From contig JALSNW010000049.1 of assembly GCA_026986785.1 (NCBI GenBank), positions 1 to 64,000 of the forward strand: DNA of 64,000 nt, in the 5' to 3' direction. A program made the translations under genes and the position numbers. Shown in pieces: positions 47,211 through 51,337 of the stretch; position 1 is the first letter of the stretch; every line of letters starts with the position of its first letter. The notes beneath the pieces were generated by a model. That model had not been told where the DNA came from. It saw only the letters and a list, made by a program, of their open reading frames with translations, and did no database searches. This DNA comes from Deltaproteobacteria bacterium (lineage in GTDB: Bacteria > Desulfobacterota > Dissulfuribacteria > Dissulfuribacterales > QOAL01).

Positions 47211-47397
47211 CCAAGCCTGGGATCCTGCCCAGGGGGAAATTCTTTCATGCCAACCAGAAGATATTTCCTCTTTGCCTCAGAAGTAGCCGTCATTGCCCAT
47301 GCCCTTCGGCAAAAAAGGCCCTAAGAGACACAAATCTCCTCTTTTCCGGTTTTGGCAATCTTATTGCTATAGCCTAAGGCAAGGAGGACTGAAATAT

Positions 47398-47781
47398 ATG
47401 TTCACACCCAAGAAAAAGATGATCCTATCCGTGCTTTTCGCATTTTTCATCTGTTCGAGCAGTGGCCTGGCCTTGGCGCAGGAAGGGGTGCTCCATAGGC
47501 TGTTGCGATCTGTTATTGCAATACCAGAGGCAGTATTACATTCCCTCCATGGGCCTCAAGAAGGGGAAAACAGTGGAAACAAAGCACCAATAATACACTA
47601 TCCCTATCCCGTCCAGGCAAATTATGGCCAGACTTACGGCTATGCCGTACCCCCGGATGTGCTGATCCACAATAGTCCAGGCTATGTAACATACAATGTG
47701 ATAGAAAAACGCAGTGATTGCCAACAACCAGAACAGGCTGACACACATGTCTTTAGTCCAATACCATTTGACAATAGATGA
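47398..47781 (+). CDS. small exported protein, first gene of the FlgO-paralogue operon
   Basis: This 127-residue protein has a clear signal peptide (KKKMILSVLFAFFICSSSGLALA, cleavage before QEG). The mature part is about 100 residues and rich in Pro/Tyr/Gln: SVIAIPEAVLHSLHGPQ, then HYPYPVQANYGQTYGYAVPPDV. I do not recognise the family. The start at ATG 47398 follows a strong AAGGAGG by 10 nt; a longer frame from 47293 is less likely. Its stop overlaps the next gene. As first gene of a run of exported proteins it is probably a periplasmic or secreted partner. Confidence 0.75.
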   Translation: MFTPKKKMILSVLFAFFICSSSGLALAQEGVLHRLLRSVIAIPEAVLHSLHGPQEGENSGNKAPIIHYPYPVQANYGQTYGYAVPPDVLIHNSPGYVTYNVIEKRSDCQQPEQADTHVFSPIPFDNR

Positions 47782-48466
47782 TAGGGCCAAGGGAATAAAA
47801 GCTCGGGCATTGCCCTGTATATGGCTCGGCTTTATCATCCTCTTATTGGCATTTGCTCAGCCTGTATGGGCGGGATCAGCCCCTGAATTCAATACTGTGG
47901 ACCAAATCACCTTGAACCTGGCCAACCAGCTCGTCACGCTCCCCCACTCGAGGCACATAGCAGGCCACATACTCGTTGTAAATTTTGTAGATCTCAGCCA
48001 ATTGGGTTGCACCTCCAGCTTTGGCCAACTAATGGCAGAGAGACTGAGAAATCTATTGGCCCAAAAAGGATGGCAGGTCTTGGAGACCAGACGGGGAGAC
48101 AAGGTAAAGATCGAAGAGGACGCAGGCCCCTACATCCTCTCCGACCAGGTAAAGGACCTGGCAAAAAAGATACATTGTACCTCAGTACTCTTGGGTACCT
48201 ATCTATATCACCAGGGGACAATAACAGTAAATGCAAAACTTGTGGCAGTCCCAGACAACAGCATACTTTCTGCTGCCACAGCGGAAGACATCTGCACCCC
48301 GTACATATTTGCACTCCTGAGGCCAATTGGTTTTGGGTGCAGATCCCCACAGGCCGTTATAAGGATAAAACCTTTTTCGAAAAGACGTATATCCCAAGAT
48401 GAACCAGCCACTTCCTATGTAGGGGAAAATTATTTCAAGGAGGACAATATAAATGAAAATCCGTAA
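47747..48466 (+). CDS. FlgO-domain exported protein 1
   Basis: The protein is 239 residues from ATG 47747, with a basic n-region (AKGIKAR) and signal core (WLGFIILLLAFAQPVWA, cleavage before GSA); there is no lipobox. The mature part has a FlgO-type domain: LVVNFVDLSQLGCTSSFGQLMAERLRNLLAQKGWQVLETRRGD, then ILSDQVKDLAKKIHCTSVLLGTYLYHQGTITVNAKLV. FlgO in Vibrio is an outer-membrane protein of the flagellar basal region, but members occur without flagella. The last 50 residues are basic and lack the domain. It overlaps the gene before (35 nt) and after (14 nt). A start at TTG 47810 would remove the basic n-region. Confidence 0.82.
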   Translation: MSLVQYHLTIDDRAKGIKARALPCIWLGFIILLLAFAQPVWAGSAPEFNTVDQITLNLANQLVTLPHSRHIAGHILVVNFVDLSQLGCTSSFGQLMAERLRNLLAQKGWQVLETRRGDKVKIEEDAGPYILSDQVKDLAKKIHCTSVLLGTYLYHQGTITVNAKLVAVPDNSILSAATAEDICTPYIFALLRPIGFGCRSPQAVIRIKPFSKRRISQDEPATSYVGENYFKEDNINENP

Positions 48467-49298
48467 GATTACCATCAGGCTGACATGTGCTGCTGCCCTC
48501 AGCTCTGCATTATGTCTCTTAGGGGCATGCTCCAAGACACCCCCTCCCCAACCTCCTGTGGTAATAAATCTAAACAATCCTGCCTCATTGACACGCCCTG
48601 AAGGGCCTACTCCATCACAGCCTTGCCAAAAATCGGTCCAACAACCGCTCCCCCAACCCTCGAGCACACCTCCCGCTGTCCAGCCCTGTCCCAACAACAT
48701 CCAGGCCGCAAAACTTCACGATGCACCCCAGACAAGACCTTGTCTGGAGGTGGAAAACATGGATGAGGCCTCTTTTTTCAATATGCAGATCCACGAAATG
48801 GCCTTGCAGCTCATGAGAAACTTTCGTACAGAACCTGGACCAGATGGCCCCATAGCGGTAGCCACTTTTGTGGATCTCAACAACCTCTATCGCACTAGCC
48901 CTTTTGGACGATATCTGGCAGAACAGCTCATGGGCGAACTCCAAAGGGCTGGTTTCAATATCGTTGAAATAAGAAAGACCGAATCCATCATGATAAAACC
49001 CAAGTTTGGTGAATATGGGCTTTCACGGGACGTGCAAGAGATCGCCCAGGAATCGTCTGCCAGCTATATCCTTGCAGGCACCTATGTCACCAGGGGCCGC
49101 TATATCATGGTGAATGCCAGACTCATATCGAACCAGAACAATCTGATAGCGTCCTCTGGTCTCAAGATCCTCAGAAGGGACCCCTTTCTCGACAAGATGC
49201 TCTGGCCCGCAACAACACCGGCTTCTGGCCATGCTGTCAGGATCCCTGTCAAAGAACTTGGGCAGATGTCAGACATAAAAATTCTGTCAGAATCTTGA
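48453..49298 (+). CDS. FlgO-domain lipoprotein 2
   Basis: This 281-residue lipoprotein has lipobox LGAC (Cys26). It is followed by a Pro-rich, Gln/Ser-rich linker (KTPPPQPPVV to SSTPPAVQP, residues 28-80) that would bridge the periplasm or peptidoglycan. The FlgO domain starts near residue 105: VATFVDLNNLYRTSPFGRYLAEQLMGELQRAGFNIVEIRKTESIM, GEYGLSRDVQEIAQESSASYILAGTYVTRGRYIMVNARLIS. AGGAGG stands 8 nt before the ATG. Its sequence agrees with the other two paralogues in the order FvDl..l..sSpFGr.lAE.l..eL and aGTY, with low overall identity. No catalytic residues are seen. Confidence 0.85.
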   Translation: MKIRKITIRLTCAAALSSALCLLGACSKTPPPQPPVVINLNNPASLTRPEGPTPSQPCQKSVQQPLPQPSSTPPAVQPCPNNIQAAKLHDAPQTRPCLEVENMDEASFFNMQIHEMALQLMRNFRTEPGPDGPIAVATFVDLNNLYRTSPFGRYLAEQLMGELQRAGFNIVEIRKTESIMIKPKFGEYGLSRDVQEIAQESSASYILAGTYVTRGRYIMVNARLISNQNNLIASSGLKILRRDPFLDKMLWPATTPASGHAVRIPVKELGQMSDIKILSES

Positions 49299-49310
49299 CG
49301 GAGAAGCAAT

Positions 49311-49988
49311 ATGCCAAGGACCTTGCGACAAAAAGTTATTTTTTACAGCCTATTTCTGGCCATTGGTACCACCTTTCTGTCAGCATGCGCTGGACCTGGA
49401 GCCAGTATCTCGCAGTCTCCTGCCAGGAGCAATAGGGCCATAGCGTGTACGGGCCGGGTTTCTGTAGCATACTCTGCCAATATCATGCCCACCATCTTTC
49501 AGGTCGCCCAGGGTCTGGCCATGCAAATTAGGCAAAATCTAAGGGGTGAAACTCTACAGGCCTGGCCATGCATCGTCACGAGCTTTGCAGACATAGACCA
49601 CCTGGAGTCTTCTTCGCGGTTTGGAAGGCTACTTGCCGAGGCGGTAAGCTCTGAGCTTTTCAGACAAGGTGCCATTATTCGAGATGTCCGATCTGCCAAG
49701 GCGCTCTTTGTCAAACCTGGAAGCGGAGAGATGATCTTGAGCCGCTATGCCAAAAATCTGGCCAAAGACATGAATGCCAGGGCTGTGATCGCTGGCACCT
49801 ATGGAACGGGTGCCACTTCGGTGGTCGTTAACATAAGGATGATCGACCTCGACACCAGAGCCGTCATCTCGGTCGCCATGACAGAACTTGCCCGCACCCC
49901 TGCTGTTGAAGCCCTTCTTTGGACAGACAATGGAAAGGATACAAAAAAGACCCCGGAGCCGACTACTTATGATGTCCAGACCTTTTAA
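49311..49988 (+). CDS. FlgO-domain lipoprotein 3
   Basis: This 225-residue lipoprotein has lipobox LSAC (Cys26). The FlgO domain follows an Ala/Ser-rich linker without Pro. It includes VTSFADIDHLESSSRFGRLLAEAVSSELFRQGAIIRDVRSAKALFVKPGSGEMIL, SRYAKNLAKDMNARAVIAGTYGTGATSVVVNIRMIDLDTRAVISV. GGAG is 6-7 nt before the ATG. It overlaps the next gene by 20 nt, with both genes likely coupled. Role unknown; probably outer-membrane anchored by its acyl chain. Confidence 0.85.
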   Translation: MPRTLRQKVIFYSLFLAIGTTFLSACAGPGASISQSPARSNRAIACTGRVSVAYSANIMPTIFQVAQGLAMQIRQNLRGETLQAWPCIVTSFADIDHLESSSRFGRLLAEAVSSELFRQGAIIRDVRSAKALFVKPGSGEMILSRYAKNLAKDMNARAVIAGTYGTGATSVVVNIRMIDLDTRAVISVAMTELARTPAVEALLWTDNGKDTKKTPEPTTYDVQTF

Positions 49989-50586
49989 GAGCGTCTTAGC
50001 CTTCGTTCTATTGAACTCTGCCAGCCTCCTCCTTTTGGGATGCAGTAGCGCATTCTTTTCCACTGACATAAACAACAGACAGGTAAAAATGCCTGTTCCA
50101 AAACTGAATGTGGTGGTAATGCCAAGGCAACACGTGAATCTGGATGAGTCCAAGGCCCTGATGATCCCAGTATTCATGGCAGGTGCACAGGAACAGCACT
50201 GGGGCCAGTCGGTCACCAATCTCATAAGATCCATCCTACTGCAAGAGGGCCTTTTTCACACCCTGGAACTGTTTCCTACCAACAATCCTGGAGACCAAGA
50301 GATCTCAAAAGAGGCCAAAGACAGGGGATTTGATTACCTGGTAGAGGTCTCCATGCCTCCAGTGATAGAACCTGCTGGGGATTCTCAGGGTTGGGTGGCC
50401 ATCCATATCAAGATCATAGATGTGAACAAGGGCTATTCCCTCTGGAGGATCTATGGTGAGACGCAGCTCATTCCCCAACCCACCTTTCATTGCCTCATGG
50501 GTGAGCGGGCCTTTGTACCAGCACCCTCCGTGGGTCAGGGAATCGTTTCTATAACACGACGGATCGCCATGGTCATGAGGCAGTAA
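49969..50586 (+). CDS. lipoprotein with CsgG/TolB-N-like fold, last gene of the operon
   Basis: This 205-residue lipoprotein has lipobox LLGC (Cys25). It does not have the FlgO consensus. Its order of strands and helices (KLNVVVMPRQHVNLDESKALMIPVF, SVTNLIRSILLQEGLFHTLELFP, DRGFDYLVEVSMPPVI, VAIHIKIIDVNKGYSLWRIYGETQLI) resembles GNA1162/CsgG-like proteins. ATG 49969 was chosen (GGAG about 10 nt upstream) over 49888. A wide gap of 178 nt follows, so it is the end of the five-gene run. It may help secretion or anchor the FlgO-like proteins; this is inference from context. Confidence 0.78.
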   Translation: MMSRPFKSVLAFVLLNSASLLLLGCSSAFFSTDINNRQVKMPVPKLNVVVMPRQHVNLDESKALMIPVFMAGAQEQHWGQSVTNLIRSILLQEGLFHTLELFPTNNPGDQEISKEAKDRGFDYLVEVSMPPVIEPAGDSQGWVAIHIKIIDVNKGYSLWRIYGETQLIPQPTFHCLMGERAFVPAPSVGQGIVSITRRIAMVMRQ

Positions 50587-50764: not shown

Positions 50765-51337
50765 ATGGATGTAGTTGATAGATTCGATGACTTTTTCATA
50801 GACGAGATAGAGGCTGCCCAGAAAAGGCTTCAAATAAATCTTAGCCCCCAATCGAAACTCTATCTCCTCCACTTACTCAAACATCTTTCAGAAAGCAGTG
50901 ATTTCTTCTACTCAGAGGTGGTCCAAGACAAGCCTTTAGGGATTGTACTTATGGAGGCACTTCACAAGAATCTCTTTGAAAGGAGTAGGGATCTCAAGGC
51001 AGTTGGAGACCTGTCTCTCATATTTTCAGGCCTTTATCCTGATCACCTCACACGAAGGACAGTGGATATAGACTATTTCATAGACACTGGCAGGAGATCT
51101 TACAGCTTGCTATCCCAAATGTATGGACCTTATAGAAGCAAACAGGGACTCCACAACCTCTACTCAATGCTTGTGGCAGAATTCGTCAGCCTAATCGAGA
51201 TCCTGACAGAAATCTCAGGTGAACTCCACTTCATGGACGAGACAAATATTGTCAGGGCGTTTGCAAGGTGGCGGAGCACCAGGGTTCGAAGATACAGACA
51301 GATCCTTAAAAGGCACAATATAATACCCTTAAAATGA
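50765..51337 (+). CDS. conserved-looking hypothetical helical protein
   Basis: This 190-residue cytosolic protein is mostly helical: FDDFFIDEIEAAQKRLQINLSPQSKLYLLHLLKHLSES, VLMEALHKNLFERSRDLKAVGDLSLIFSGLYPDHL, RRSYSLLSQMYGPYRSKQGLHNLYSMLVAEFVSLIEILTEI, and a basic tail WRSTRVRRYRQILKRHN. It has a strong AAGGAGGT 7 nt before the ATG. I do not recognise a family. No transmembrane helix or Cys motif. It is convergent with the aminotransferase 4 nt away. Confidence 0.8.
   Translation: MDVVDRFDDFFIDEIEAAQKRLQINLSPQSKLYLLHLLKHLSESSDFFYSEVVQDKPLGIVLMEALHKNLFERSRDLKAVGDLSLIFSGLYPDHLTRRTVDIDYFIDTGRRSYSLLSQMYGPYRSKQGLHNLYSMLVAEFVSLIEILTEISGELHFMDETNIVRAFARWRSTRVRRYRQILKRHNIIPLK

Follow-up and report, generated by a model that had tools for sequence, protein, structure and literature searches.

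A FlgO-type operon that probably encodes an accessory outer-membrane ring of the flagellar motor

Five consecutive plus-strand genes (g1 to g5, positions 47398 to 50586) in the 64,000-nucleotide stretch of DNA analyzed here, referred to below as the window, very probably specify an outer-membrane ring or disc that serves as an accessory to the flagellar motor. This part is most likely a FlgO-based flagellar outer-membrane accessory, that is, one of a known kind rather than an unknown system. We tie the operon to the flagellum because a large flagellar regulon is present in the genome, FlgO tracks flagella across genomes, a sigma54 site precedes the operon, and in one relative (G022) the cluster is linked to flgH-flgL; the same evidence speaks against the suggestion of an earlier note, which, seeing no flagellar genes nearby, had put the operon forward as a candidate for an undescribed system, possibly one for adhesion. 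Flagellated members of the window's phylum commonly have FlgO, in many cases as an ancient pair and in some with a third copy, and it is joined there to a PelC-like lipoprotein that has no family in Pfam or NCBIfam. New in this gene set are the multiplicity of FlgO paralogues and the PelC-like lipoprotein partner, together with FlgP and FlgT going undetected in weakly controlled searches.

Gene content and layout of the operon

All five genes carry N-terminal signal sequences (read by eye) and are tightly packed, with overlaps between g1 and g2, g2 and g3, and g4 and g5 and a gap of 12 nt between g3 and g4 (Table 1), in agreement with the earlier description of closely spaced genes for exported proteins. 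The lipobox Cys is invariant in g5 and invariant or nearly so in the orthologue alignments of g3 and g4. Judged by their sequences, g3 and g4 are predicted outer-membrane lipoproteins whose lipobox Cys is kept in orthologues, and g2 is without a lipobox. No match to g1 was found in Pfam or NCBIfam profile searches, the latter of which returned no matches for the operon proteins generally; g1 is marked by the motifs GVLHxLxRxVxAIPxAVLxS, PxYVTY, and SPIPF.

Table 1. Features of the operon and its surroundings in the window
Feature	Position	Strand	Description
sigma54-type -24/-12 promoter TGGCAATCTTATTGCT	47353-47368	+	29 nt before g1; score 14.1
Shine-Dalgarno-like AAGGAGGA	about 47381-47388	+	between sigma54 site and g1
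g1	47398-47781	+	small exported protein, 127 aa, signal peptidase I type, no known family
g2	47747-48466	+	third FlgO paralogue, 239 aa, periplasmic, signal peptidase I type, no lipobox; FlgO domain residues 58-179
g3	48453-49298	+	FlgO lipoprotein, 281 aa, lipobox (LLGAC) Cys26; FlgO domain residues 115-241
Pro-rich tether of g3	48531-48761		residues about 27-103
g4	49311-49988	+	second core FlgO lipoprotein, 225 aa, lipobox (FLSAC) Cys26; FlgO domain residues 68-196
g5	49969-50586 (likely start 49969/49972)	+	PelC-like lipoprotein, about 205 aa, lipobox (LLGC), no Pfam family
Downstream ORF	50765-51337		190 aa, no Pfam match

Nine neighbouring genes of the window were scanned, including those for a dephospho-CoA kinase, a mechanosensitive channel, a phosphoribosyltransferase, a GIDA-family (TrmFO-type) protein, an aminotransferase, and a radical SAM protein, and neither flagellar genes nor pel or curli genes were found among them. 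Among the loci compared, the ORF just downstream of the operon was found only in the same-genus genome G001.

FlgO domains of g2, g3, and g4

The proposal that three of the proteins are of the FlgO type was confirmed, with g2, g3, and g4 matching the Pfam FlgO family PF17680 over nearly its full length at 95, 125, and 108 bits (E of 3e-27, 2e-36, and 3e-31), respectively, against a cut-off of 22.6. Pairwise identity among the three is 30 to 36% over 105 to 136 aa, and they therefore have more in common than the two quoted motifs, beyond which the earlier note had seen little else shared; the Pro-rich tether that it ascribed to one paralogue is that of g3. Sequence matches to FlgO proteins in the PDB were obtained for g3 (E 4e-15) and g2 (E 7e-7), and the PDB FlgO proteins related to g2, g3, and g4 (9yfg/9yds) are present as 58 chains per entry.

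FlgO-like and PelC-like folds are also known from non-flagellar proteins, namely, LpoB, TolB, and CsgG. It is very improbable that the FlgO paralogues are LpoB-like regulators, i.e., lipoproteins that span the peptidoglycan to switch on a synthase, possibly so that the wall opens for the flagellum. The C-terminal domain of LpoB is indeed the best fold match of the predicted g3 model, and the succession of lipobox, Pro-rich tether, and globular domain in g3 is the layout of LpoB, but that model reached no more than moderate confidence (pLDDT 67), the sequence family is FlgO, no LpoB family profile matched g2, g3, or g4, and the linkage is to flagella and not to PBP genes.

Predicted fold and occurrence of g5

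The AlphaFold2 model of g5 (19 sequences) was confident, with a pLDDT of 86.6 and a pTM of 0.74. A Foldseek search with this model ranked the PelC dodecamer best (E 2e-10, probability 1.00, TM 0.80 by target length), followed by the LPHT ring entry 8z5n, CsgG, and FlgT, in line with the view that the last gene has a different, CsgG-like fold. PelC, the top solved match, is a dodecameric outer-membrane lipoprotein ring, and identity to g5 in the best PelC matches was 9 to 16%. The predicted fold of g5 is thus of the PelC/CsgG/FlgT type, and by sequence g5 is not a FlgO protein. The Pfam CsgG family gave no match for g5, and a phmmer search of g5 against the PDB returned repeat-like matches only, which were dismissed as meaningless. 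Considering the FlgO domains, the conserved lipoboxes, and the PelC-like fold of g5, a multi-component outer-membrane ring, as the earlier note had proposed, is still the best inference for the products.

In four flagellated genomes (G004, G008, G023, and G026), g5 occurs without detectable FlgO. At the loci of two of them (L125 and L126, from G004 and G008), g5 sits between an apparent GIDA-family gene and an aminotransferase gene, the same flanks as those of the operon in the window; the pattern looks as if g1 to g4 had been lost and g5 retained in flagellated genomes. In addition, distant g5-like genes in other families adjoin a flagellin gene (L140) or lie near fliD (L141). Because g5 is kept without FlgO in flagellated genomes and its distant relatives lie by flagellin and fliD genes, it looks to be the set's most fundamental component.

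Conservation of the gene set and FlgO phylogeny

Conservation as a unit, raised by the earlier note for all five genes, was found for g3-g4-g5, which keep their order and strand in all the related genomes compared whose contigs reach that far, and did not extend to g1 and g2, which are additions mainly in the window's own family. The conserved core is thus FlgO-FlgO-g5, and this triad also occurs outside the order, in families f71 and f83 of the same phylum. The alignment of g3 was conserved in 20 rows. Eight genomes, all of the window's family, have g2, and 12 other genomes (13 in all) have g1 homologues in the corresponding position, the distant ones being weak. In the FlgO tree, g4 clusters with the second FlgO from families f50, f52, f71, and f83 (support 97/82), and the FlgO pair is therefore old. 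The g2 proteins form a clade of their own (support 100/99), the exact root of which is unsure in this tree with several long-branched rows.

Other FlgO arrangements were observed as well. Four of four Nitrospirae/Nitrospinota loci (L080, L081, L083, and L084) have three tandem FlgO genes followed by a gene for a small exported protein, forming another triple-FlgO operon outside the window's phylum. Five genomes (G229, G251, G272, G292, and G181) have four FlgO genes each, as two separate pairs, and one FlgI. Moreover, in other families the FlgO pair is immediately preceded by small ORFs for exported proteins or lipoproteins (L077:55-336, L129:10885-11160, and L131:9748-10086), which occupy the position of g1 without clear sequence similarity to it.

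Flagellar genes in the genome and co-occurrence with FlgO

The absence of flagellar genes reported earlier held for the nine neighbours scanned and not for the genome, whose other contigs carry flagellar genes. FlhA and flagellin were found there by search, and FliL, FliM, FliR, FliF, FlgE, flagellin (fliC), and FliD were confirmed with Pfam; the ORFs neighbouring these genes, judged by eye, comprise most of the remaining flagellar set. A non-flagellar role, first suggested by the missing FlgI, was reversed by the finds of FlhA and flagellin.

In the draft genome of the window, the search did not find FlgI, the flgF-flgL block that contains it was not seen, and only two Flg_bbr_C proteins were found (C51, flgE; C23, flgC). 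The same-genus genome G001 has the flgF-flgL block split over two contigs, with the break falling within flgI, and the absence from the draft is therefore likely, although not proven, to be an assembly gap; were the loss real, the operon may have another role in this genome. Of all the explanations weighed, the least probable is that the operon is a remnant in a lineage whose flagella no longer work. The missing FlgI and the mere two Flg_bbr_C proteins would fit such a decay, but all five genes of the operon are intact, as are the other flagellar genes seen, and the broken copy in G001 indicates a block that assembles badly. Another same-genus genome, the non-flagellated G002 (98% complete), is without FlgI, FlhA, flagellin, FlgO, and g5.

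Across 395 genomes of the phylum, FlgI was present in 61 of the 63 with a strong FlgO match versus 173 of the 332 others (Fisher p 3e-13, with genomes counted as independent despite their kinship), and the window's own genome is one of the two strong-FlgO genomes without FlgI. A strong match was defined by an E of at most 1e-14, which left out two matches with E of 2e-14 and 4e-14; long ORFs with weak PF17680 matches (E above 1e-14) were excluded as probably encoding other TolB/CsgG-like proteins. Within the order, 24 of the 25 genomes that carry the FlgO cluster have FlhA versus 10 of 16 others (p 0.009), the sole exception among the former being a genome that is 55% complete. Many flagellated genomes are without FlgO, and FlgO is therefore not essential.

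Promoter and linkage to flagellar genes

Control by sigma54 is well established for flagellar genes in other bacteria. Upstream sites were scored against a fixed consensus, and those scoring at least 13 within 250 nt were counted, the 99th percentile of random windows being 13.1. Sites of this type precede 10 of the 19 operon copies with upstream sequence, including that of the window, versus 3 of 245 other genes at the same loci (p 6e-11, with near relatives counted apart), and one of these three genes begins the flgF/G operon of G022. No site above the threshold was found in the other 9 of the 19 copies. In the window's own genome, a sigma54 site also lies before fliL. A scan for sigma70-type promoters was uninformative, with 8 found versus 5.4 expected.

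Physical linkage was observed in G022, where FlgO-FlgO-g5 starts 2.7 kb downstream of flgL and 1.9 kb downstream of fliW and runs in the direction of flgG-flgA-flgH-flgI-flgJ-flgK-flgL, with flgA assigned by position only. These observations bear on the possibility of a non-flagellar outer-membrane ring that would serve adhesion or export, in which the FlgO paralogues and g5 would make a CsgG- or PelC-like pore for secretion or surface fibres. We consider this very improbable: the closest folds to g5 are PelC and CsgG and the scanned neighbours of the operon are not flagellar, but those flanking genes are also without pel or curli, FlgO tracks FlgI, the sigma54 promoter class is shared with flagellar operons, the G022 cluster adjoins flgH-L, and the g5 model spans the PelC-like domain.

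Proposed role as a flagellar accessory

For the preferred flagellar ring or disc, we infer the localisation, assembly, ring order, and mechanical role of the products as follows. The sigma54 RNA polymerase would turn the operon on along with other flagellar genes, and the Lol pathway would deliver the g3, g4, and g5 lipoproteins to the inner leaflet of the outer membrane. There, g5 may form a PelC/CsgG-like collar around the L-ring, with the two or three FlgO paralogues forming further rings around this collar and the domain of g3 reaching across the peptidoglycan by means of its Pro-rich tether, while g1 and g2 would be soluble periplasmic parts added in the window's family. The resulting structure would ease the passage of the flagellum through the outer membrane, support the rotating bushing, and distribute the load. 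The same functions have been proposed for the Vibrio H-ring and the FlgO/FlgP disc.

A more specific model is possible, albeit doubtful, in which the Thermodesulfobacteriota-type flagellar disc is heteromeric, an inner g5 collar replacing FlgP/FlgT and each surrounding ring being built from a different FlgO paralogue. Duplication would then set the number or radius of the rings, and g5 alone, as in the flagellated genomes without FlgO, would be the minimal collar. The gene set lists the candidate components of a motor structure amenable to imaging, and it allows the number of paralogues to be tested against the number of rings.

Comparison with known systems

The PelC dodecamer of Pel polysaccharide export and CsgG resemble g5 in fold, in lipoprotein nature, and in having ring-forming relatives, whereas g5 has a flagellar linkage and is without pel or curli partners nearby. 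Literature on FlgO in the window's phylum was not found in a search that left most subscription papers outside its reach, and a survey from 2018 that described FlgO discs in Vibrio and Arcobacter detected no accessory proteins of this type among the delta-proteobacteria (PMC5758724).

The Vibrio H-ring or FlgO-FlgP disc (FlgO, FlgP, and FlgT) is alike in its flagella-linked FlgO-domain outer-membrane lipoproteins, and a disc at the L-ring is the product expected here; the present operon differs in having two or three FlgO paralogues and a PelC-like lipoprotein. For FlgP, PF02169 (LPP20), a mere proxy that was positive in no control genome, had no match in the window's own genome and exceeded the cut-off in 1 of 41 genomes; for FlgT, PF16539 (FlgT_M), a model without a positive control, had no match in the 41 genomes, including the window's own. 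FapH of Helicobacter pylori is a lipoprotein that forms a flagellar ring at the outer membrane, and its gene adjoins the disc gene flgP (PMC11756786). By this description g5 may be likened to FapH, both being lipoproteins encoded beside a disc gene, flgP in the case of FapH and flgO in that of g5.

The discs of Vibrio fischeri and Arcobacter consist of concentric rings, and the basal disc of Arcobacter butzleri is suspected to contain FlgO but no FlgP, a single FlgO homologue having been described there alongside PflA/PflB (PMC5758724). The likeness to the present operon lies in FlgO with no FlgP detected, and several FlgO copies could serve concentric rings; the difference is that Arcobacter butzleri has a single FlgO homologue plus PflA/PflB, whereas two or three FlgO proteins are encoded here.
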